DNA from: a virus
Strand: one strand, 5' to 3'
Virus record (IMG/VR): IMGVR_UViG_3300033388_005701
Location: 1-41,522 of that record
Length of the DNA: 41,522 bases
Below are positions 383-41,522 of this stretch, in pieces; within the stretch, counting starts at the first letter, position 1, and each line of letters opens with the position of its first letter. The position numbers and the translations under genes were made by a program. Below the pieces are notes generated by a model. The model was not told the DNA's origin. It saw only the letters and a list, made by a program, of their open reading frames with translations, and made no database searches.

Positions 383-824
383 AAACGACTTACCCCTAAG
401 CGATACCTGGGGCAACATATCAATTATACGAATGGAAGGTGTGTATACACGCTCAACATCCATTATAAAATAAAATATAATTTTGAAAAACAACTTGAAT
501 CTAAACTGAATTGTTAAAAGCTTATCTGTATAGTAAGAAGTTTAACCATATTGCGGATGTCTGAAAAACCTTAACTACGTAACCGACTTATGTTAGATAA
601 CTATAAACTAGGATTATCTTAGTTCCCGAAGGGGGCAAAAGACGTTAATCTAGAACGGAACGGTACCCTACCTACTGTAATGTTAGGTAAGATATAGAAT
701 CTAATATTTGTATTACACAATTTTTAACACGCCTCATTTGCACTGTTACGTTATTCTACACCCTATATTATAGCCTTAATATTTAGTTATGGATTTGCGC
801 CCCTAAGTCTTTGATGAAATTAGA

Positions 825-893
825 AGAAAGAGGAATATCGAAATACCATTTCCACTCGAAAGCTGGCGTTCTACCAATTGAACTACCCTTCTT
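825..893 (-). ncRNA. tRNA-like element A
   Basis: On the minus strand a 7-bp acceptor-like helix (AGAAGGG with TCTTTCT, with wobble pairs) encloses TA, a D-arm GTTC-AATTGGTA-GAAC and a T-arm-like segment with TTCGAT in its loop. The anticodon region CCAG-CTTTCGA-GTGG would give anticodon UUC, but its closing pair is G-G, and the T-arm is one base short with a mismatch. A degenerate tRNA-Glu or a tRNA-shaped domain of the larger RNA are both possible. The 14-base segment AAAGGTGAGATTAA lies just upstream and is shared with element B. Confidence 0.4.
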
Positions 894-912
894 TTAATCT
901 CACCTTTCGATA

Positions 913-1004
913 AGATTATGGTGGGAAGATATTTCTCGAATATATATCATCTCTAGGACTTCATGAATCGGCCTAGTGTTTTTACCGATTAAACTATTCC
1001 CGCC
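913..1004 (-). ncRNA. tRNA-like element B with enlarged loops
   Basis: The minus strand gives an acceptor-like GCGGGAA/TTCCCAC helix (one C-A mismatch), TA, D-arm GTTT/AAAC around AATCGGTAA, a perfect five-pair CTAGG/CCTAG anticodon-type stem and a GATAT/ATATC T-type stem containing TTCGAGA. The anticodon loop has 14 bases instead of 7 and the T loop 11 instead of 7, so it cannot be a standard tRNA. It is preceded by the same 14-base segment (1005-1018) that precedes element A. Confidence 0.4.
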
Positions 1005-1033
1005 TTAATCTCACCTTTAAATAAAATTACAGT

Positions 1034-1178
1034 GTGGGTGTGGGACCTAGGTCTCCAGTTGTTCCCTTCCTTGGGAGACTCCACGCGACCTTTCGGTTTC
1101 GAGGCGTTACTCTCTCGTCAGGCGTTTGGTTTGGAAGGCAAGATGTTCTAATGTCATTCCCACTGTAGAACCCACGCT
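1034..1178 (-). ncRNA. Structured element C with nested closing helices and pseudoknot
   Basis: Two nested helices close this segment: GTGGGT/ACCCAC (1170-1175 with 1034-1039) and GTGGGA/TCCCAC (1158-1163 with 1040-1045). Inside are GTTC...GAAC, a GAAA tetraloop hairpin and the GTCTCC/GGAGAC hairpin with its possible pseudoknot to CCTTCC. The upstream segment AAGGTGAAATTAT (1179-1191) is a variant of the repeat before elements A and B. A Gly-like CTTCCAA string is present, but the whole does not fold as a tRNA. It is probably a domain of the larger RNA. Confidence 0.4.
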
Positions 1179-1462
1179 ATAATTTCACCTTGATATTACG
1201 ATAATATCGCTATAATTGCAAAGGTAATGTGATAAACTAAAGGGAGGTTAAGGCCCCCCAAAGTTCATCTGATGGGTATAAATGAAGATACTATTATCAT
1301 ATCCTCAATTAAACTCATCGTGAGTATCGGCTATGCCAGAATTACCAGTCTCAAAGCCTTGAGCAGAATTAACTACCCCGAAACTTTCCCATTTTGAATA
1401 TCCTGAAGACTTCAAGTACTAAGTTTCGTCGCCTCCAATCTATCCCGATTTTCAGCTCCCCT

Positions 1463-1492
1463 ATAATATACACATCTACAGGAGTCTATCAA
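1463..1492 (-). promoter_or_regulatory. Promoter for the structured RNA
   Basis: On the minus strand TTGATA (1492-1487) is followed after 16 bases by TATATT (1470-1465), or after 18 bases by TATTAT (1468-1463). The next bases are AGGGGAGCTG, a plausible start. The -35 element lies in a series of TTGATA/TTAATA repeats (1486-1522), AATGTTGATA-type elements also found at 13269 and 16193. Confidence 0.5.
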
Positions 1493-1597
1493 CAATTTAT
1501 TAACATTTTATCAACATAAATAGTGTGCCTTGGTAAGCAAGTTATGGGCAGCGTAACCGTCCTCCCTCAGGGTACCACCCCAACACTGTAAACTAAA

Positions 1598-1737
1598 ATA
1601 GGTGGGCAGGGATTTGGCTAATCGAGAAGGTTGTAATAACCTAAATTAGTATAGTCACCCTGCAGGAGTGTGGAACTAAAACTATTGACACTCTCTAGTT
1701 TTTCATTCCTAGCGTCTACCTATTCCGCCACCACCTA
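1598..1737 (-). ncRNA. tRNA-Leu-like element with long insertions
   Basis: The minus strand begins like a leucine tRNA: acceptor TAGGTGG (1737-1731), TG, then the D-arm GCGGAATAGGTAGACGC (1728-1712). It ends with a matching CCACCTA (1605-1599) preceded by a T-type stem GCAGG/CCTGC. The distance is about 140 bases instead of about 85. The T loop is expanded by about 40 bases holding its own AGGTT/AACCT hairpin, and the anticodon/variable region is about 17 bases too long. No anticodon can be assigned safely. Decayed tRNA, intron-bearing tRNA or tRNA mimic are all possible. Confidence 0.45.
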
Positions 1738-1845
1738 TTCTTAAACTAACGGGCTGCCCAATGCTGAAATTCAGTACAAAAGAGCCTAACCATCCTTTAA
1801 GAATAACTCTCCCTTCCTTAGAACATCAGGCAAACCGAAGAACCT

Positions 1846-4548: not shown

Positions 4549-4559
4549 TATACTTCCAC

Positions 4560-4604
4560 TGTTAAATCCATAATTAAGATACGCTTATTAGAGTACAATG
4601 TCAA
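4560..4604 (-). promoter_or_regulatory. Minus-strand promoter cassette, copy at 4.6 kb
   Basis: TTGACA (4604-4599), 17-base spacer, TATCTT (4581-4576), then GGATTTAACA (4569-4560). The same arrangement recurs at five other minus-strand sites. It drives the ribbon-helix-helix gene and those after it. Confidence 0.8.
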
Positions 4605-4617
4605 CACATATTATTAT

Positions 4618-4734
4618 TTATAATTCAACTCTTTTTAGTCTACCAGCTTTAACATCTTCCAAGCCTCTTTTAATAGATTCTAAATCCTTTGCAGGTAAGT
4701 CTTCACTTCTTTTTCTAGGTTCTCTTTTACTCAA
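4618..4734 (-). CDS. Small antitoxin-like protein
   Basis: A 38-residue basic protein whose TTG start overlaps the upstream stop as TTGA and has GGAGG nine bases upstream; an ATG three codons earlier lies too close to GGAGG. The C-terminal half, SIKRGLEDVKAGRLKRVEL, resembles the C-termini of small antitoxins (helix followed by a short basic strand). No toxin was recognised next to it, so this is only a resemblance. Confidence 0.5.
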   Translation of the reverse strand: MSKREPRKRSEDLPAKDLESIKRGLEDVKAGRLKRVEL

Positions 4735-6153: not shown

Positions 6154-6232
6154 CTTCCGCTTCCTTCTTAGCTAACCATTTAATTGAACTATCTCTTTGT
6201 TGTTTATCAAAGTCCTCGAATACGTTTCCCAT
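6065..6232 (-). CDS. Small hypothetical protein
   Basis: A 55-residue charged protein (MGNVFEDFDKQQRD...) with GGAG seven bases before the ATG. It overlaps the preceding coiled-coil gene by 26 bases and the following zinc-finger gene by 89 bases. The good ribosome site is the main support; function is unknown. Confidence 0.55.
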   Translation of the reverse strand: MGNVFEDFDKQQRDSSIKWLAKKEAEDAKNSSPSKSKKYSKVYITKFQDDTDYFG

Positions 6233-6380
6233 TTTCTAACTCCAAATAAATTATTCTATTTCTACTGTTTTTAACTATTAACGATAGGCTCTTATTGTCT
6301 TCTCTTAGCTCTTCAAGGGAGTGGCTTATTCTTTCCATAGCCTCCACTACGAGTTCCAGTACTTTCTTAGTATCACTCAT
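6207..6380 (-). CDS. Short coiled-coil protein, first gene of the left operon
   Basis: A 57-residue protein with heptad-like leucines and isoleucines (LELVVEAMERISHSLEEL...). The ATG at 6380 has AGGAAA upstream. A longer TTG frame would start at the predicted transcription start of the 6396-6440 promoter and is rejected. Function is unknown. Confidence 0.65.
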   Translation of the reverse strand: MSDTKKVLELVVEAMERISHSLEELREDNKSLSLIVKNSRNRIIYLELENGKRIRGL

Positions 6381-6395
6381 ATGTTTCCTGCTCAC

Positions 6396-6440
6396 TGTTA
6401 AATCCAATATTAAGATACGTCTTAGTGTTTACGTTGTCAA
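6396..6440 (-). promoter_or_regulatory. Minus-strand promoter cassette, copy at 6.4 kb
   Basis: TTGACA (6440-6435), 17 bases, TATCTT (6417-6412), then GGATTTAACA (6405-6396), only 15 bases before the ATG of the first operon gene. It is one of six copies of this cassette and presumably the main promoter of the 1846-6380 operon. Confidence 0.85.
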
Positions 6441-6933
6441 CAATTATTATTATTTAGTTTAGGCTAATGGTTATATGATTACCGCTTTGCTTCGCTCGCT
6501 TATTCAGTAGTAGTTCTATTGTAGTCTTTTTAATGTTTCTCAGAATCATGGGTTGTGTGTTCTAAGATGCAGCTCACCCCCAAACCCCCTCACGGAGATT
6601 TAGAGATGAACCACACGATATTTCTCGTCAAAATTGGGAGTTTAGTAATCGAAGTGCCCTAGACATAGCTGTTACCTTAATGCCTAAGTCTATTAAAATC
6701 CCCTGAGTCATCGTGTACAGTCTCGTCAGGTAATTAGTCAGTTAATAGACTACCACGCAGAACACACCCTGCGTATACGGTTTACTTTAATTTGAGTCGG
6801 ATTGTTGAAAACTGACTCTGTTGAGAATGGCCCGAAGGCCTCAGTCCTCAACACTTTTAAAACTAGGTAATAAAATCTCAATGTCAAGTGTTTTTTTAGT
6901 TTCTTTAGTGCGAAAAGAACTTATATTAAATAA
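6441..6933 (-). ncRNA. Second structured, gene-free segment; candidate RNA
   Basis: There is no gene between the divergent early and fibre genes. Complementary arms are frequent: GTTGAG/CTCAAC (6820-6852) enclosing GGCC-GGCC, GAGTC/GACTC (6794-6818), ACGCAG/CTGCGT (6755-6774), TAGTC/GACTA (6735-6752) and ACACGAT/ATCGTGT (6613-6619 with 6710-6716). Read on the minus strand the inner loop at 6833-6836 becomes C(UUCG)G, which favours that strand. A perfect TTGACA lies at 6887-6882 on the minus strand, though its -10 is poor. It could instead be the 5' leader of the plus-strand fibre gene. Confidence 0.5.
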
Positions 6934-11746: not shown

Positions 11747-13261
11747 ATGGCAATATACTTGGAAGAAAATAACAAATCAATCAACGATATATTAAGGGAA
11801 ATGTCCCTTAATAAATTTATTAGCCTATTTTGCAGCGTTTATGACTATGATGTTGAAAAATGGTGTCCAATAGTCCTATGGCCTAAGCAGGTTGAGCTTA
11901 CTGACCTTTTAGAGGTTACTACAAAGATATTCTGGCCCAAAGCTAGACAAGTGGGTGGTTCAATGGTTGCAGGCTGCCTTGCAGCTAAGGTTGCAATCTC
12001 AGAACCTAACTCTGACATCTACGTTATCTCTAAAACAGAGGGGGATGCTCAATATTTCCTGAAGGATAAAGTAAAAAGTATCCTAGAACACCTTCCAAAG
12101 GTTGAGGGTATTGACTGGCCCAAAAGTACACCCTATAAAGATAGAATTGAATTCTCGAATGGTTCTACAATCACCTCCCTAACAAGTTCCGAGGATGCAG
12201 GTCGTGGGCGCTCATCTGTTAGATTATTTATAATGGATGAAGCTGGTGCGATTGAGCATGCTAGAGCTATTTGGAAAGGTGCTTCTCCCGCCATCGAGAA
12301 ACACCCCAGGGGCCAAATGATTGTGATTTCAAACTCAAAATCTGGCTCTTGGTTTAATATTATGCTCAAAAAGATAGATGAAGGTGATGTTGATGGAATA
12401 GATTTGCATTTTATGTCATCATGGACCGACCCAGCTAGAGATGAAGCCTGGAAACGGGTATCTATAACTCAATATGACAATGAGATAGATTTCTATACCG
12501 AGTATCCCGAAAAAGTGGAACATATGTTTCTCAAAAGAGAGGGTTACGCTTATCCTACCTTTAAATCTAAAGAGGGTGGACCCCACGTTAATTCTTTTGA
12601 ACCAGACTTTGAACATAATAGGCTTATCTTTGGATATGACCACGGTTTTGAGCATTATTCTGTATTTCTAATGATGGTTTGGGATATGTATAATGACCAC
12701 CTTTATGTTTTCGATGAATTATTCAGTCATCAACAAGGTGTCCCAGAGATAGCAGTTTCAATGCTAAATAAGATTGAGAAGTGGGAACGGGAGCTTATGC
12801 CTGTTAAATCATGGCTTAATATTGCCGATTCAGCCATTTTCTCTAAGCATGGAACAAAACCAGTTTCAGAACTTATTCATGCCTATACAGGATTACATTT
12901 TAGTAAATCTCTCAAATATAATGAAGCCGCTTCTACTGATATGCTCAGAAGTAGGTTCACATTAAATAAAATTACGATTCATCCCAGATGCTATAACACA
13001 ATAGGTCAAATTAGAGACTTAATGTATGGAAAAAATGGGAAGATTAAAGATGCTAATAATGATTCTGTGGATATTTTACGTTATATTTGTACAGAGTTAA
13101 GACAACAAACCAGGCCAGCGGAAGTAAAAGTACCAAAAGCATACGATAGAAGATTTGGTAAATACCAAAGAAATATGAGTATCTTACATAAAATGGGGCA
13201 AGATGATGGTAGTGAAAGGGAATTTTCAGCCCAAGAGCTAGGAAATTGGCAAGCTTTTTAA
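11747..13261 (+). CDS. terL: Terminase large subunit
   Basis: A 504-residue packaging motor ATPase and nuclease. The Walker A-like segment is KARQVGGSMVAG near residue 65, and Walker B is LFIMDEAG near residue 160 with the catalytic glutamate. The C-terminal RNase H-like nuclease shows FGYDHG near residue 295 and a late acidic NDSVDILRY near residue 440. Length and motif order fit TerL. It docks on the portal (14182-16185) during DNA packaging. No small subunit is recognised next to it. Confidence 0.9.
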   Translation: MAIYLEENNKSINDILREMSLNKFISLFCSVYDYDVEKWCPIVLWPKQVELTDLLEVTTKIFWPKARQVGGSMVAGCLAAKVAISEPNSDIYVISKTEGDAQYFLKDKVKSILEHLPKVEGIDWPKSTPYKDRIEFSNGSTITSLTSSEDAGRGRSSVRLFIMDEAGAIEHARAIWKGASPAIEKHPRGQMIVISNSKSGSWFNIMLKKIDEGDVDGIDLHFMSSWTDPARDEAWKRVSITQYDNEIDFYTEYPEKVEHMFLKREGYAYPTFKSKEGGPHVNSFEPDFEHNRLIFGYDHGFEHYSVFLMMVWDMYNDHLYVFDELFSHQQGVPEIAVSMLNKIEKWERELMPVKSWLNIADSAIFSKHGTKPVSELIHAYTGLHFSKSLKYNEAASTDMLRSRFTLNKITIHPRCYNTIGQIRDLMYGKNGKIKDANNDSVDILRYICTELRQQTRPAEVKVPKAYDRRFGKYQRNMSILHKMGQDDGSEREFSAQELGNWQAF

Positions 13262-13268
13262 AAAAATG

Positions 13269-13298
13269 TTGATACTTTGTTGATAAAATCACTATTTT
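13269..13298 (+). promoter_or_regulatory. Putative plus-strand promoter with TGTTGATA elements
   Basis: TTGATA (13269-13274), 18-base spacer, TATTTT (13293-13298), with a second TTGATA at 13280-13285. The AATGTTGATA element matches repeats at 1486-1522 and 16193-16254. It would drive the portal and capsid genes. Confidence 0.45.
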
Positions 13299-14181: not shown

Positions 14182-16185
14182 ATGACTACAGAAGTACCTA
14201 GCGGATATAATACTGTTCAATTTTACACTGATTTGTTTAGAAGCTATAAAAGGCGAAACAAAAACGATTTATACAGACAGGCCCGAAATTGGGGCATGTT
14301 CTCTGGTGTAAATGGTAAACAATGGGACCCAGCGGCTCTAGCACAATTGTTAGACGAAAGCCGAGCGCCCCATCAAGTGAATTTTATTCAGAAGCACGTT
14401 ATATCGCTTGCAGGTAACTTCATTCAAAACGGGTTTGAGCCTGATTTTGAACCTAACATGGGTGCATCCAATGATGACACCCTTCTACTTAATGACCTTT
14501 ATTCTATAGATAGAAATAGGGGTGATTGGAAGAAAACACTAAGGGCCAATATCCTTGCTGGCCTTGTTCATCGTGGTAGCTTTGAAATGTACGTAGACTA
14601 TAAAACGGACCCCCAGGGAAGTATTAGTTTAAGGACGATAAGCAAAGACCGCATATTGTATGACCCTGATTGGACCTCTGCAAATATGAGTGATAATAAG
14701 CATTTGATAGAATTCGCATGGATGGCCCCAGATGAAATAAAAAGACGCTATAACAAAAGTAATGGTGAACTTGACGTTGCAATTGAGCTGTGGAAAAACG
14801 GCATGGCAGTGAGAGATGAAGATGAAGATGAAGAAAGCTTAAAAAACGGAAACTATAATCTATTTAATGACTCTGCCGATTTATTGGATACCGTAAATAA
14901 CAGATATTTGGTTATTCAGGTCAAAAGGCTTGAACGTGGCTTCAAAAGAGGTCTAATTGACAAAAAGACTGGTAAGAAATTAAAAGACATGAACGAAATG
15001 GATATGGAATCCATGATGATGCTTAGGGGTGAATCTCTTAAAGTTTATACTAATGAATATGCTAAACAAAGAGTCACTACTATCATTCCTGGATTATCTA
15101 ACACACTTCTTTTGGAAGATGATGCATTAACAGAAATGCAAATTGGAAGATACACTAATTTCTCATGGTCTTCTCTAAATATTGATGGTGAAGTACAGGG
15201 AGTAGTAGAGGTATTAAAAGACCTTCAGGAAATCTATAATAAAAGAGAATCTACGTTTACACATGCCCAAACTACGGCAGCTAATGGTGTTGAAATAGTT
15301 GAAGAGGATTTCTTTGCCGATGATACTGAGTTACAAAGCTATAGAGATAATAAAAACAAGCCTGGAGAAATCTTCATAGCCAAAGCTGGAAGGATTTCTG
15401 CTCAAAGAGCTGGGATTATGAATAAACAGAGGGATAATCTCCCTAATGACCTTCATACATCGGCTGACAGAGCTTTTAACATGACTACAGAGGTTGGTTA
15501 CAATGTTCCCCCGTTATCGGGTGGAGAAGGTAAATCAGGAGAGTCTAACGCCCTATTTGAATCAAAAAGAGCCAGTGCTTTAGTTGCTCTAGAGTTTACG
15601 ACCCAAACATTGAAAGATATGGATGAAGAGGTTGGAGAGGCCTATTTATACGCCTGTAAAAGCCTTTATTCTGGCTCTCCAAGAGTAAGGACCTCTACAG
15701 ATAAGAAAAGACAGATATTATTGAATATCCCTAATGAAGATGGAAGTATTACGGGTGATGTCAGTAAAATAAGACGGCATAGCGTAACAATCACAGCTTC
15801 TAGAAAAGGTGAGACTCTAAGAAGAGAAATTCTAACCAAATACACTCAAATATTACAAGTTGTTCAAAATCCCATCTACAGGTCTATTATTGAAAAGAAT
15901 ATGATTCAGTATGTTCCAAATATTCCAGAGAGTGAGATTGAAGACGGTAAAAAAGCGGCTGACTTGTTTATTGAATTACAAGAATCTAGAATGGTTACGG
16001 AAATTGCAACAAATGAAGCTCAAGTTAAGAAATTGCAACAACCACCACCACCCCCCCAAGCTCCAGGTGGAATCGCTCCAGGTGGAGAAGAGCCTGGAAA
16101 TACTCCCGTTTCTGTAGAAGGTGCACCCGTTGAACCTGGAAACACGCCCACAGTTGACGTAAATAATGTAAATCAGATGCGATAA
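14182..16185 (+). CDS. Portal protein
   Basis: A 667-residue protein, near the length of P22 gp1 (725 residues). It shows the usual portal order: an N-terminal helical region, a central core with DRILYDPDWT near 155-165, the long-helix region, and a C-terminal tail. The last 60 residues carry a proline run (QQPPPPPQAPGG) and Gly/Pro repeats. Twelve copies would form the ring through which TerL pumps DNA and to which the tail adaptor binds. The position just before scaffold and coat genes agrees. Confidence 0.85.
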   Translation: MTTEVPSGYNTVQFYTDLFRSYKRRNKNDLYRQARNWGMFSGVNGKQWDPAALAQLLDESRAPHQVNFIQKHVISLAGNFIQNGFEPDFEPNMGASNDDTLLLNDLYSIDRNRGDWKKTLRANILAGLVHRGSFEMYVDYKTDPQGSISLRTISKDRILYDPDWTSANMSDNKHLIEFAWMAPDEIKRRYNKSNGELDVAIELWKNGMAVRDEDEDEESLKNGNYNLFNDSADLLDTVNNRYLVIQVKRLERGFKRGLIDKKTGKKLKDMNEMDMESMMMLRGESLKVYTNEYAKQRVTTIIPGLSNTLLLEDDALTEMQIGRYTNFSWSSLNIDGEVQGVVEVLKDLQEIYNKRESTFTHAQTTAANGVEIVEEDFFADDTELQSYRDNKNKPGEIFIAKAGRISAQRAGIMNKQRDNLPNDLHTSADRAFNMTTEVGYNVPPLSGGEGKSGESNALFESKRASALVALEFTTQTLKDMDEEVGEAYLYACKSLYSGSPRVRTSTDKKRQILLNIPNEDGSITGDVSKIRRHSVTITASRKGETLRREILTKYTQILQVVQNPIYRSIIEKNMIQYVPNIPESEIEDGKKAADLFIELQESRMVTEIATNEAQVKKLQQPPPPPQAPGGIAPGGEEPGNTPVSVEGAPVEPGNTPTVDVNNVNQMR

Positions 16186-16428
16186 TCGCAATCTATCAAC
16201 ATTTTATCAACATTTTATTAACTATAAACAATTAATCAACAATTAATCAACATTTTAGTTGTTTAAGACTCTAATTTCTAATTATTTTATAGTTAAGTTT
16301 TTTGAGCAGTAATAAAAACTGTTATCGAAATCTTGAAAACTAAACACAGGGGCAGTAATTAACTGTAACTCAATTAAAATCCAACATAGGGCAGAGACTT
16401 TCTGTAACCAAAAACAAGGATAGAATAA
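16186..16428 (+). promoter_or_regulatory. Portal-scaffold intergenic region with two kinds of repeats
   Basis: The first part (16193-16254) is made of tandem TATCAACATTTTA and ATTAATCAACA units related to those at 1486-1522. The second part has two hairpins with a shared frame: GGGGCAGT-AATTA-ACTGTAAC (16349-16369) and GGGCAGA-GACT-TTCTGTAAC (16388-16407). The scaffold ATG follows 22 bases after the second. The layout suggests a regulated promoter followed by a structured leader. Confidence 0.5.
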
Positions 16429-27781: not shown

Positions 27782-29532
27782 TGTCTACTAAAAAACAATT
27801 TCTTGAAATGTTAAAAGAAAAGGGGGCCACTAGAGAACAGGCCGCCAAAGCATTTAAAATGAAATTAGAGCAAGGCTCCCCATTTGATGAAGAGCCTGTG
27901 GATACTATTGAAGTACTTGAATCGGGTGAAGACTTAGGAGCAGGGTTTCCAGAAACTCCAGAGCGCTCAACTATTTCAAAAGCCATAGCCCCCACAGCTG
28001 GGGCAGATGTACATATTCCAGACAGCCCAGTATTAGAGGGTGCTGCAAAAGTTGGGACTACTGCATTAGAAGTAATGGACTTTCCGAAAAGAGCTTTAGG
28101 GGCGCTAAGGGGTGGAGATATAACAGACCCCAAAACCGCACTATTCGCAAAAGAAGCCGAACCTTTCGAGAACATAGATTTAGCAATTTCCAACCTAGAG
28201 AAAAAACTTTCCGCACTCCCAAAGGAAGATGATGATGGTGCTATAACCTCTATGTTAGGTAGTTTTATTAGAGGTGGAGCATCAAAAAAAGAACTAATTG
28301 AAAATGTTTTAGAAGACCTTCAAAAAAGGAAGGATTCGGGAAAAGGAATGAATGCGGCCAATATAGTAGTGGCTGAATTTATGAAGGAAGCTCCCACAGC
28401 TTTTGTTGGTTCATTGGGTTCGGCTGCCAAGAAAACTATAAAATGGTTAGGCGCTGGCAAATTTGTTATGGCTGAAAGGCTAGGCGAAAATGTATCCAAA
28501 CTAAGTGAAGACGCTTTTAGATTCCTAAGAACAAAAGGAGCTGAGGGAAGAAAGACTTTAGAACAAGCCCAAGGAAAAGCTTTTGAACTTGGAAATGAAA
28601 TAAGGGATATTGTTTTTAATAAGCCTGAAAAGTTTTTCCCTGAAACTAAAGTTATAAATGATATTGTTGAGAAAATGCCTAATATACCTATTGGCCCTAC
28701 AGTAAAGAAACTAAGGGAGCTTGAAAGTCAAGTTGTTGGTAGAAGTGATATAGCTGTGGAAGTAAGAAATGTTATAACGAAACAAATTAATCACCTTGAG
28801 AATGCAACGAAATCCACAGGCCCAGAATTATTTGATGCTAGTGGAAGAGTTATCCCGAAAAAGATTACAAAAGATGTAGAGATTTCTGCTAAAGCTTTTA
28901 AACAAACTAGAGAAGACCTTGACGCTTTTGTTGGTAATTTTGACCAAGTTCCCCCAGACCTTAAGAAAAGAATGAAGTCTATATACAAAAGTGTTGGTGC
29001 TCAAATGAGGGCAGACTTGGTAAAGCATGCACCCAAAGAATTCAAAGAAGATATGAAATCATGGCACAATAAATTATCTGCTATTGATGAACTAAAATTC
29101 AAATTCGGTACAAATGGTGAATCTTTTATTGGCTCAGCTTTTGGGAAAAACAAATCTCAAAGACAAGCCGCCCTTGATGGGATAGAAAAAGCTTTCGAAA
29201 AAGAGGGTTTTAAAATAAAGAATAGAGCTAAACTAACTTCCTTAGCTGATGAATTAGAAACTAGAGATTTTACAACTAAACTAAGAGCGCCTAGAAGAGT
29301 GGGTGAAAACTTCACTTCTGTTAGTGGTTTGCTTGGTTCTGTTATACCTCCATCCACAGCTTTCAAAGTAGTTAATACACTTGAAGCCGCTGGAAAGGGA
29401 TTAAGCAAAGTTGATAAGTTGTCAGAACTTGGAATTGATGCGGCTCAATATTCTGCTTTATTAAATATGATGAAGGGAATAGCTGAAAACGCCCCTGGAC
29501 CTGGCCCAGTTACGGAGCCACCTGGATTATAA
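27781..29532 (+). CDS. Putative internal virion (ejection) protein, last plus-strand late gene
   Basis: A 583-residue, mostly helical protein with N-terminal ATREQAAKAFKMKLE (a short helix-turn-helix-like unit) and amphipathic Ala-rich regions. It has the size and position of the P22 gp16-type ejection protein. Its end overlaps the end of the convergent resolvase gene by 23 bases, with no space for a terminator between them. Confidence 0.6.
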   Translation: MSTKKQFLEMLKEKGATREQAAKAFKMKLEQGSPFDEEPVDTIEVLESGEDLGAGFPETPERSTISKAIAPTAGADVHIPDSPVLEGAAKVGTTALEVMDFPKRALGALRGGDITDPKTALFAKEAEPFENIDLAISNLEKKLSALPKEDDDGAITSMLGSFIRGGASKKELIENVLEDLQKRKDSGKGMNAANIVVAEFMKEAPTAFVGSLGSAAKKTIKWLGAGKFVMAERLGENVSKLSEDAFRFLRTKGAEGRKTLEQAQGKAFELGNEIRDIVFNKPEKFFPETKVINDIVEKMPNIPIGPTVKKLRELESQVVGRSDIAVEVRNVITKQINHLENATKSTGPELFDASGRVIPKKITKDVEISAKAFKQTREDLDAFVGNFDQVPPDLKKRMKSIYKSVGAQMRADLVKHAPKEFKEDMKSWHNKLSAIDELKFKFGTNGESFIGSAFGKNKSQRQAALDGIEKAFEKEGFKIKNRAKLTSLADELETRDFTTKLRAPRRVGENFTSVSGLLGSVIPPSTAFKVVNTLEAAGKGLSKVDKLSELGIDAAQYSALLNMMKGIAENAPGPGPVTEPPGL

Positions 29533-35468: not shown

Positions 35469-35486
35469 ATATTCCTTAGTTATTAA

Positions 35487-35532
35487 TGTTAAATCCTATA
35501 TTCAATTTAACACTAAACGTGTCCATTGTCAA
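35487..35532 (-). promoter_or_regulatory. Minus-strand promoter cassette, copy at 35.5 kb
   Basis: TTGACA (35532-35527), 17 bases, TAAATT (35509-35504), then GGATTTAACA (35496-35487). It overlaps the end of the annealing-protein gene region and would drive the nuclease, SSB and downstream genes. Confidence 0.85.
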
Positions 35533-35538
35533 CACATA

Positions 35539-35955
35539 TTATTTTTCTTTTTTAAAGTCTTCACTTTCATCTTCCCCAAATACACCTAATTCATAAAATC
35601 CAGTCATCTTTAAAACTGCTCTGCTCATAGCTCTTTTTTCTGCCATCTCCATAACATACCACGTTGTACAATTTCCGAACTCATCCCATTTATTTTTTTC
35701 TTTATTCCAGGTCTTTGAGCCATATTTAGCACTGCCAAAAGTTTCAATTCTAGCCCCTTTTTTACTTGCCACAGCTTTAACTACACAAAATTCAGGTTCA
35801 GATTTTATAGCCTCATACCTTATAAAGATTGTTTCTTTAGCTTGTATTTTGTCCATTCCTTGCCTAGTGACAATCATATAATGTTTATGCTTAAAAACAT
35901 CGTCAGCGGTTAGCTCATATTTTTTGTATAGCTCTGTTAATTTTACTCTATCCAT
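35539..35955 (-). CDS. Probable single-strand annealing or recombination protein
   Basis: A 138-residue protein. The C-terminal block TTWYVMEMAEKRAMSRAVLK followed by TGFYELGVFGEDES resembles the AE(T/K)RAxSRAL-type motif at the end of the core in Rad52/Erf-like annealing proteins. The neighbourhood (SSB, RecB-like nuclease, RusA) supports this. It is shorter than typical annealing proteins, so assignment to a named family is left open. Confidence 0.55.
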   Translation of the reverse strand: MDRVKLTELYKKYELTADDVFKHKHYMIVTRQGMDKIQAKETIFIRYEAIKSEPEFCVVKAVASKKGARIETFGSAKYGSKTWNKEKNKWDEFGNCTTWYVMEMAEKRAMSRAVLKMTGFYELGVFGEDESEDFKKEK

Positions 35956-37456: not shown

Positions 37457-37484
37457 TTTGTATCTCTCTTTTGTTAAGTTTAAT

Positions 37485-37530
37485 TGTTAAATCCTATAAT
37501 CAATATAACACTCTTTGTTTCCATTGTCAA
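37485..37530 (-). promoter_or_regulatory. Minus-strand promoter cassette, copy at 37.5 kb
   Basis: TTGACA (37530-37525), 17 bases, TATATT (37507-37502), then GGATTTAACA (37494-37485). This is the best match to the sigma70 consensus among the copies. Confidence 0.9.
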
Positions 37531-37536
37531 CACATA

Positions 37537-37860
37537 TTATCCATATTGTAATATTTTTTCTTCTTTTAATTTTTTATACCTATTCATTAGTTCTCTATCT
37601 GATATGGTTCTAAGGTATGCTTTGATTTTTTCGGGTGGAATCACCTGTCTTCTCTGTAATAACTGACGTTCCATCCCTCTAATTACATGATATAACTCAA
37701 GCCGCTTTTTTGGACTCATAAATTTATCACGGTGTATAATTTTTGCAAAGCAATGAACACAAATTTTTGTTATATCTGCGTAACATTCACATTTTGTTTG
37801 GTCTACTATTTTTGTAATAAAATCTTGTGGGCTTGTTGCTGCAATAATTTTATTAAACAC
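37537..37860 (-). CDS. Hypothetical Cys-containing protein
   Basis: A 107-residue protein with CECYADITKICVHC near residues 24-37, a compact zinc-type group, then a helical, Lys/Arg-rich C-terminal half (GMERQLLQRRQVIPPEKIKA). The gene occupies the whole space between two promoter cassettes, so it is a separate unit. Confidence 0.7.
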   Translation of the reverse strand: MFNKIIAATSPQDFITKIVDQTKCECYADITKICVHCFAKIIHRDKFMSPKKRLELYHVIRGMERQLLQRRQVIPPEKIKAYLRTISDRELMNRYKKLKEEKILQYG

Positions 37861-37885
37861 GATAATCTCCTTTTTTATTTATTAA

Positions 37886-37931
37886 TGTTAAATCCTGTAA
37901 TCAATTTAATCCTCATTGTTTCCAATGTCAA
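37886..37931 (-). promoter_or_regulatory. Minus-strand promoter cassette, copy at 37.9 kb
   Basis: TTGACA (37931-37926), 17 bases, TAAATT (37908-37903), then GGATTTAACA (37895-37886). It serves the 37537-37860 gene alone before the next cassette. Confidence 0.85.
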
Positions 37932-37936
37932 CCTGT

Positions 37937-39727: not shown

Positions 39728-39749
39728 TTTTAATTTCCTTTGTTTAATT

Positions 39750-39798
39750 TGTTAAATCCTATACCTATAATATACTCTATTGTTGTTTACATTGTCAA
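39750..39798 (-). promoter_or_regulatory. Minus-strand promoter cassette, copy at 39.8 kb
   Basis: TTGACA (39798-39793), 18 bases, TATATT (39774-39769), then GGATTTAACA (39759-39750). The spacer is one base longer and the gap to the block slightly shorter than in other copies. Confidence 0.8.
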
Positions 39799-39810
39799 CA
39801 ACTTTATTAA

Positions 39811-40218
39811 TTAAATATATTCTGCATAATCAAAGGAGTTAATTACTTCTGTATTGGTTTTATTGAATACTTTATTTTCTTTAATTTCTTTTTCGTACAT
39901 TTTGTAAATAGAATACCCTGTGAATACTTCTTTTTTAGTGTGCAAGTATTCTTTAACTTCTGGTTTGCTTGTTTTTGCTTCTAATATCCATTTACAGACG
40001 AAATATTGAGCAGCTTGTTTTACTGTTAGTCCGAATTTTCCGCTAATTGTAGAGGGTCTAAAGCTTCTATGTTTTCGTTCGTCTTTTATTACTGCTTTCA
40101 TAAAATCATCCAAATGACTTGCACTTTCCATAATTCTAACTAGTGAGAAGTAAATAGATTCAATTTCTTTTGTGTGAGTAGTTTTTGTTTTTGTAGTAGT
40201 TGTTTTTGTGTTTGTCAT
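39811..40218 (-). CDS. Hypothetical protein, first gene of the right minus-strand block
   Basis: A 135-residue basic protein. The N-terminus is a Thr/Lys run (TNTKTTTTKTKTTHTK), and the centre (SGKFGLTVKQAAQYFVCKWI) could be helix-turn-helix-like. It is expressed from the promoter at 40266-40294 and would be among the first genes transcribed on this strand. A regulatory role is possible. Confidence 0.7.
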   Translation of the reverse strand: MTNTKTTTTKTKTTHTKEIESIYFSLVRIMESASHLDDFMKAVIKDERKHRSFRPSTISGKFGLTVKQAAQYFVCKWILEAKTSKPEVKEYLHTKKEVFTGYSIYKMYEKEIKENKVFNKTNTEVINSFDYAEYI

Positions 40219-41435: not shown

Positions 41436-41522
41436 AGTGTAAAGCTGAATTACCTAAAGGATGGTTATCTACTTGTATTGATTGTTTGCGTATTGCTTAT
41501 GCTTGTAAGAGAGTGTCAAAAG
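41423..41522 (+). CDS. N-terminal part of the join-crossing zinc-ribbon protein, unusual start
   Basis: The frame opens after a stop at 41420. GGAGAGG (41411-41417) lies five bases before ATT at 41423, making ATT a possible, rare start codon; ATA at 41432 is the other option, overlapping the upstream stop. No ATG, GTG or TTG is available. The frame continues through the join to position 130. The CIKC and CIDC pairs indicate that the frame is real. Confidence 0.5.
   Translation, partial: MNCIKCKAELPKGWLSTCIDCLRIAYACKRVSK
41470..41522. repeat. Right copy of 53-bp terminal direct repeat
   Basis: Identical to positions 1-53. It lies inside the coding frame that crosses the join, consistent with a circular molecule cut at an arbitrary point. 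Confidence 0.95.

Follow-up and report, generated by a model that had tools for sequence, protein, structure and literature searches.

Does the gene-poor beginning of this phage genome encode a large structured RNA and, if so, of which kind? The first-pass annotation had proposed, at 590-1460, a giant structured non-coding RNA with its own promoter, possibly of the GOLLD or ROOL type. The window, i.e., the whole stretch of 41,522 nt that was analysed, is a complete phage genome. Its positions 1-53 and 41470-41522 are identical (53 bp), which makes the record a circular or terminally redundant genome. The plus strand carries the structural genes, among them those of the large terminase subunit (11747-13261, plus) and of a P22-type portal (14182-16185, plus), and the minus strand carries the early genes. 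The absence of coding potential claimed for 590-1460 was borne out, since no plausible gene was found in a stretch of about 2.1 kb running from 41,133 across the joint of end and start to about 1,760. Another stretch without ORFs of at least 70 aa, 780 bp in length, was seen at 6154-6933.

Strand and extent of the structured array

We observed that the minus strand folds beyond chance. This was seen for the whole array (Table 1), for 590-1460 (z of -3.0 on the minus strand versus -1.6 on the plus strand) and for 1020-1598 (about -3.4 versus -1.9), where none of 150 shuffles folded as well as the minus strand. Twenty-six control windows of 579 nt from elsewhere in the genome had a mean z of -0.24 and a lowest value of -2.9, and the minus strand of 1020-1598 scored -4.5 in that run, which used only 15 shuffles. 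A plus-strand RNA was rejected, since that strand folds more weakly. Read on the minus strand, the array is co-oriented with the early genes, which it precedes, and its helix boundaries follow one another in the order 1741-1595, 1591-1027, 1015-909 and 904-813. A structured, RNA-like region is thus present as proposed, but its boundaries had been misplaced: the array spans approximately 960 nt of the minus strand, from about 1757 to 797, and folding of 590-800 was no better than chance. Pairing of the array ends as extensive as that of its terminal helix was found in 7/60 shuffles. Outside the array, strong local folding was also seen on the minus strand at 361-520 (z of -4.0).

Table 1. Features in and around the array, with positions in the window
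Feature	Position	Strand	Details
Whole structured array	797..1757	-	Fold z -4.6 minus versus -2.8 plus
Terminal helix of array, weak	1757-1743 / 810-797	-	Mean pair probability 0.94
M1, tRNA-Leu-like	1595..1741	-	11-bp outer stem AGAAUAGGUGG/CCACCUAUUUU; D-arm GGCGGAAUAGGUAGACGC; other arms greatly enlarged
M2, candidate ornate core, ~565 nt	1027..1591	-	Closing helix 1591-1571 / 1047-1027 (21 nt)
M2 internal helices	1384-1352 / 1128-1096; 1319-1299 / 1291-1271; 1269-1262 / 1238-1231	-	From pair probabilities
U0, 3' part of M2 in alternative conformation	1020..1189	-	Outer stem 1189-1171 / 1038-1020, 18/19 pairs
M3, tRNA-like	909..1015	-	19-position outer stem; anticodon-position loop 14 nt (971-958); T-position loop 11 nt (943-933)
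M4, tRNA-like	813..904	-	Outer stem as in M3; anticodon-position loop 9 nt (863-855); T-position loop 6 nt
Possible H-type pseudoknot, CCUUCC 1138-1133 with GGAAGG 1070-1065	1065..1138	-	Chance level when taken alone
Promoter-like TTGATA-16-TATATT	1465..1492	- (1492-1465)	Not in excess of chance
DnaA-box-like array	1487..1516	+	TATCAACA, TATTAACA, TATCAACA at 11-nt period; comparable arrays in relatives

The motifs quoted in the first-pass annotation all exist on one strand, the minus strand, including a GAAA loop and a C-UUCG-G loop. The sequence taken for the RNA's own promoter is likewise there, but as a signal it does not exceed chance (10 sigma-70-like sites found versus 10.7 expected from shuffles); its TTGATA hexamer falls inside the DnaA-box-like array. 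The two halves of the suggested pseudoknot are indeed complementary, with GGAAGG lying within the loop of a GUCUCC/GGAGAC hairpin (1079-1074/1056-1051), but a 6-bp match is at chance level. By our estimate, a sequence of 870 nt should contain dozens of perfect 6-bp complements, so that the pseudoknot taken alone is uninformative.

tRNA-like units, a common outer stem and a large core

Scanning with Rfam models (cmscan, to E <= 10) gave two credible matches only, both to tRNA (RF00005) on the minus strand: 892-824 in M4 (33.0 bits, E 7.5e-7 for this genome) and 1003-920 in M3 (31.3 bits). These tRNA-derived units on the minus strand, and the outer stem repeated around them, had been overlooked in the earlier reading. 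Both scores lie above the cut-off of 29, and neither unit has a 7-nt anticodon loop with a readable anticodon. M3 and M4 are clearly related to tRNA, though odd in shape. M1 and U0 fell below the RF00005 covariance-model cut-off, and the standard ARAGORN scan returned no tRNA genes, accepting neither M3 nor M4. M3 retains 20/21 tRNA stem pairs (manual count); its 5' half resembles phage tRNA-Gly and matches a tRNA-Gly gene in contig L057. M4 has an intact D-arm and retains most tRNA stems. Both cloverleafs are about 3 kcal/mol less stable than the predicted minimum-energy fold. The loop sizes of M3 and M4 disfavour decoding. The D-arm of M1 gave weak blastn matches, several of the top ones being annotated as tRNA-Leu, and the fold predicted for M1 from pair probabilities is a four-way junction with long arms.

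U0, M3 and M4 have an outer stem in common, in which GGUGARAUUA is paired with UAAUYUYAUY and the inner stems differ yet are complementary. The genome has exactly three copies of GGTGARATTA, all on the minus strand and each directly before one of the three units (at 1189, 1015 and 904). Together with its next 9 nt, each copy has an ungapped downstream partner, forming 18, 17 and 18 of 19 pairs, respectively; at random genome positions, 17 pairs were reached in 0.165% of trials and 18 pairs in 0.025%. When the three outer stems were compared as paralogues, 53 of 57 cells paired (93%, a value biased upward by the choice of the three rows for pairing) versus 44-54% in slid controls. The better evidence is given by changes on both sides at matching positions, seen for 7 of the 19 pairs. 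Indeed, the inner stem differs throughout between M3 and M4 and pairs in both. The identical 10 nt may reflect recent duplications. These paralogues are the sole stem comparison, and our searches found no homologue of the stretch. Folding energy and paralogous stems support the proposal that one strand encodes a large structured RNA, although neither the extent nor the own promoter given for it was upheld.

The core M2 contains several helices with a pair probability of >0.9 in a region with a z of -3.4. Its long-range closing helix was equalled in 8/150 shuffles and was rejected as stand-alone evidence for that reason. Moreover, this helix competes with the outer stem of U0, a homologue of the M3 and M4 outer stems. 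Since M2 and U0 share a 3' strand, at least one of the two conformations is wrong, or both alternate. We also considered U0 as an intron-bearing tRNA and rejected this, as neither a T-loop nor a D-arm consensus was seen by eye.

Known RNA families and related phages

ROOL is an octameric nanocage and, to our knowledge, no function is known for large phage RNAs beside tRNA clusters. The covariance models of ROOL (RF03087), GOLLD (RF02032, a model of the conserved 3' region with 416 positions), HEARO and tmRNA gave no match in the region up to E = 10, and ARAGORN found no tmRNA there. A positive control, done for the ROOL model only, recovered the known copy in pMP118 (130 bits, E 1.1e-29). Membership in any of these four families, which the first-pass annotation had suggested checking, thus found no support. 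Since neither model matches and the ROOL model detects the pMP118 copy, the region is filed under neither GOLLD nor ROOL, despite a real resemblance in setting. The proximity to tRNA genes that the annotation had mentioned for such RNAs has a counterpart here, since the array is tied to tRNA-like units, as is often the case for GOLLD and ROOL. Both are encoded in phages or prophages, frequently near tRNA islands, with some phage tRNAs sitting in the GOLLD linker (PMC12286853), and in a mycobacterium a pseudo-tRNA gene has been described within a GOLLD gene (PMC6582537). Like GOLLD, the array is phage-borne, large and near tRNAs or pseudo-tRNAs (PMC12286853, PMC6582537), but it lacks a match to the model of the conserved 3' region. 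Like ROOL, it is near tRNAs and has a core comparable in length to the model (574 positions), but it does not match that model. With phage tRNA gene arrays (RF00005) it has in common tandem units on one strand, tRNA D-arms, acceptor stems and the T-arm UUCGA; unlike those arrays, it has overlong anticodon-position loops (14 and 9 nt), odd T loops, a 10-bp outer stem common to its units and, in M1, long arms.

Eight related contigs were found. Two of them, G001 (terminase 82% identical) and G002, miss the region, the former ending at about 41.1 kb of the window and the latter starting at about 2.9 kb. The only complete relative is G003 (43,985 bp, with a 136-bp end repeat). There, the corresponding position immediately ahead of the early genes is occupied by a non-coding stretch of 763 bp (28,068-28,830) that contains two DnaA-box-like arrays. 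This stretch folds modestly (z of -2.1 and -2.4), contains no tRNA-like unit and has no sequence match to the array region beyond the DnaA-box-like arrays. The relatives carry no tRNAs, and a covariance model built from M3 and M4 found nothing in them. Searching phages and plasmids with the stretch by blastn gave short, weak matches only. Among viral contigs, the tandem leader pattern returned 99 stretches and no second region of this kind, with the tRNA-Gly match in L057 as the exception. With leader and D-arm combined, the pattern had no match in viral sequences and four in genomes, all of them outside a tRNA context. Peptides of the flanking genes revealed no relatives, and no prophage relatives were found in genome contigs. 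As far as can be seen from these searches, the array appears to be lineage-specific. Since the relatives found give no homologous sequence at the region, we speak of a new ornate RNA as a candidate.

A processed precursor and its alternatives

The reading that we favour, with a probability of about 0.5, is that of a minus-strand precursor in which a structured core (about 565 nt) is surrounded by tRNA-shaped RNAs that probably do not decode. Positions from about 1757 down to 797 would be transcribed in the same orientation as the early genes, giving a non-coding precursor built as a chain of separately closed modules, M1 and M2 followed by M3 and M4 in their paralogous outer stems. Precursors with a tRNA shape are known substrates of RNase P and RNase Z, and RNase III cleaves long helices, so that these host tRNA-maturation enzymes could cut at the tRNA-shaped units and at the outer stems. 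Such cutting would release stable RNAs, namely the units and the core, the latter ending right at its closing helix. Transcription, processing and a function of the core are inferred in this reading. The units are probably processing signals or tRNA mimics and not decoding tRNAs, because their anticodon loops are unfit for normal decoding and nearly all tRNA stems are kept. An array of this kind, whose tRNA-like units are plainly no ordinary tRNAs but have preserved stems and a common outer stem, would point to an involvement of the tRNA neighbours in the production or use of the large RNA.

The main rival is a decaying tRNA cluster: the phage would formerly have possessed tRNA-Leu, tRNA-Gly and one more tRNA, all reduced to pseudogenes by now, with filler DNA making up the remainder. 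The negative ARAGORN scan, the wrong lengths of the anticodon and T loops, the lack of tRNAs in the relatives and the precedent of the pseudo-tRNA gene inside the mycobacterial GOLLD gene (PMC6582537) all agree with it. Decay should, however, strike stems and loops alike, whereas here almost all of the acceptor, D, anticodon and T stems have been preserved, as have the outer stems beyond the tRNA body, and the changes lie in loops; we regard decay as possible, if somewhat unlikely. A DNA-level replication origin or control region, with hairpins serving initiation and no RNA product, would account for the three-box array at 1487-1516 and for its two counterparts ahead of the early genes of G003. 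We consider an origin unlikely, since similar arrays follow the terminase and portal genes and are thus not specific to this stretch, and since it leaves the tRNA relatedness and the strand bias in folding unexplained. Finally, a GOLLD or ROOL nanocage RNA diverged past detection would fit the phage location, the size, the end-to-end closing helix and the usual tRNA neighbours, which for GOLLD may even sit in the linker (PMC12286853). Such a relative should be very improbable given the lack of any match to E = 10 with a ROOL model that finds pMP118 at 130 bits.

The favoured precursor might also belong to a new phage RNA class, an idea that we rate as distinctly doubtful. Here, tRNA-shaped modules that do not decode and that sit in a common type of outer stem would frame, process or assemble with the large core, possibly via the self-complementary loops UUCAUGAA (M3 loop) and GACCUAGGUC (M2), to give a tRNA-decorated particle unlike ROOL and GOLLD.

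DnaA-box-like TATCAACA repeats with an 11-nt period were also seen at 13267-13285 (minus) and 16194-16212 (plus), directly after the stop codons of the terminase and portal genes, and arrays of the same kind occur in G001, G003, G004, G005 and G007. In addition, an intergenic element of about 60 bp is repeated at 4557-4620, 6393-6456, 35476-35542, 37465-37540, 37866-37932 and 39742-39813. It mostly adjoins early minus-strand genes, is present in G001 too and is perhaps an early promoter or operator.
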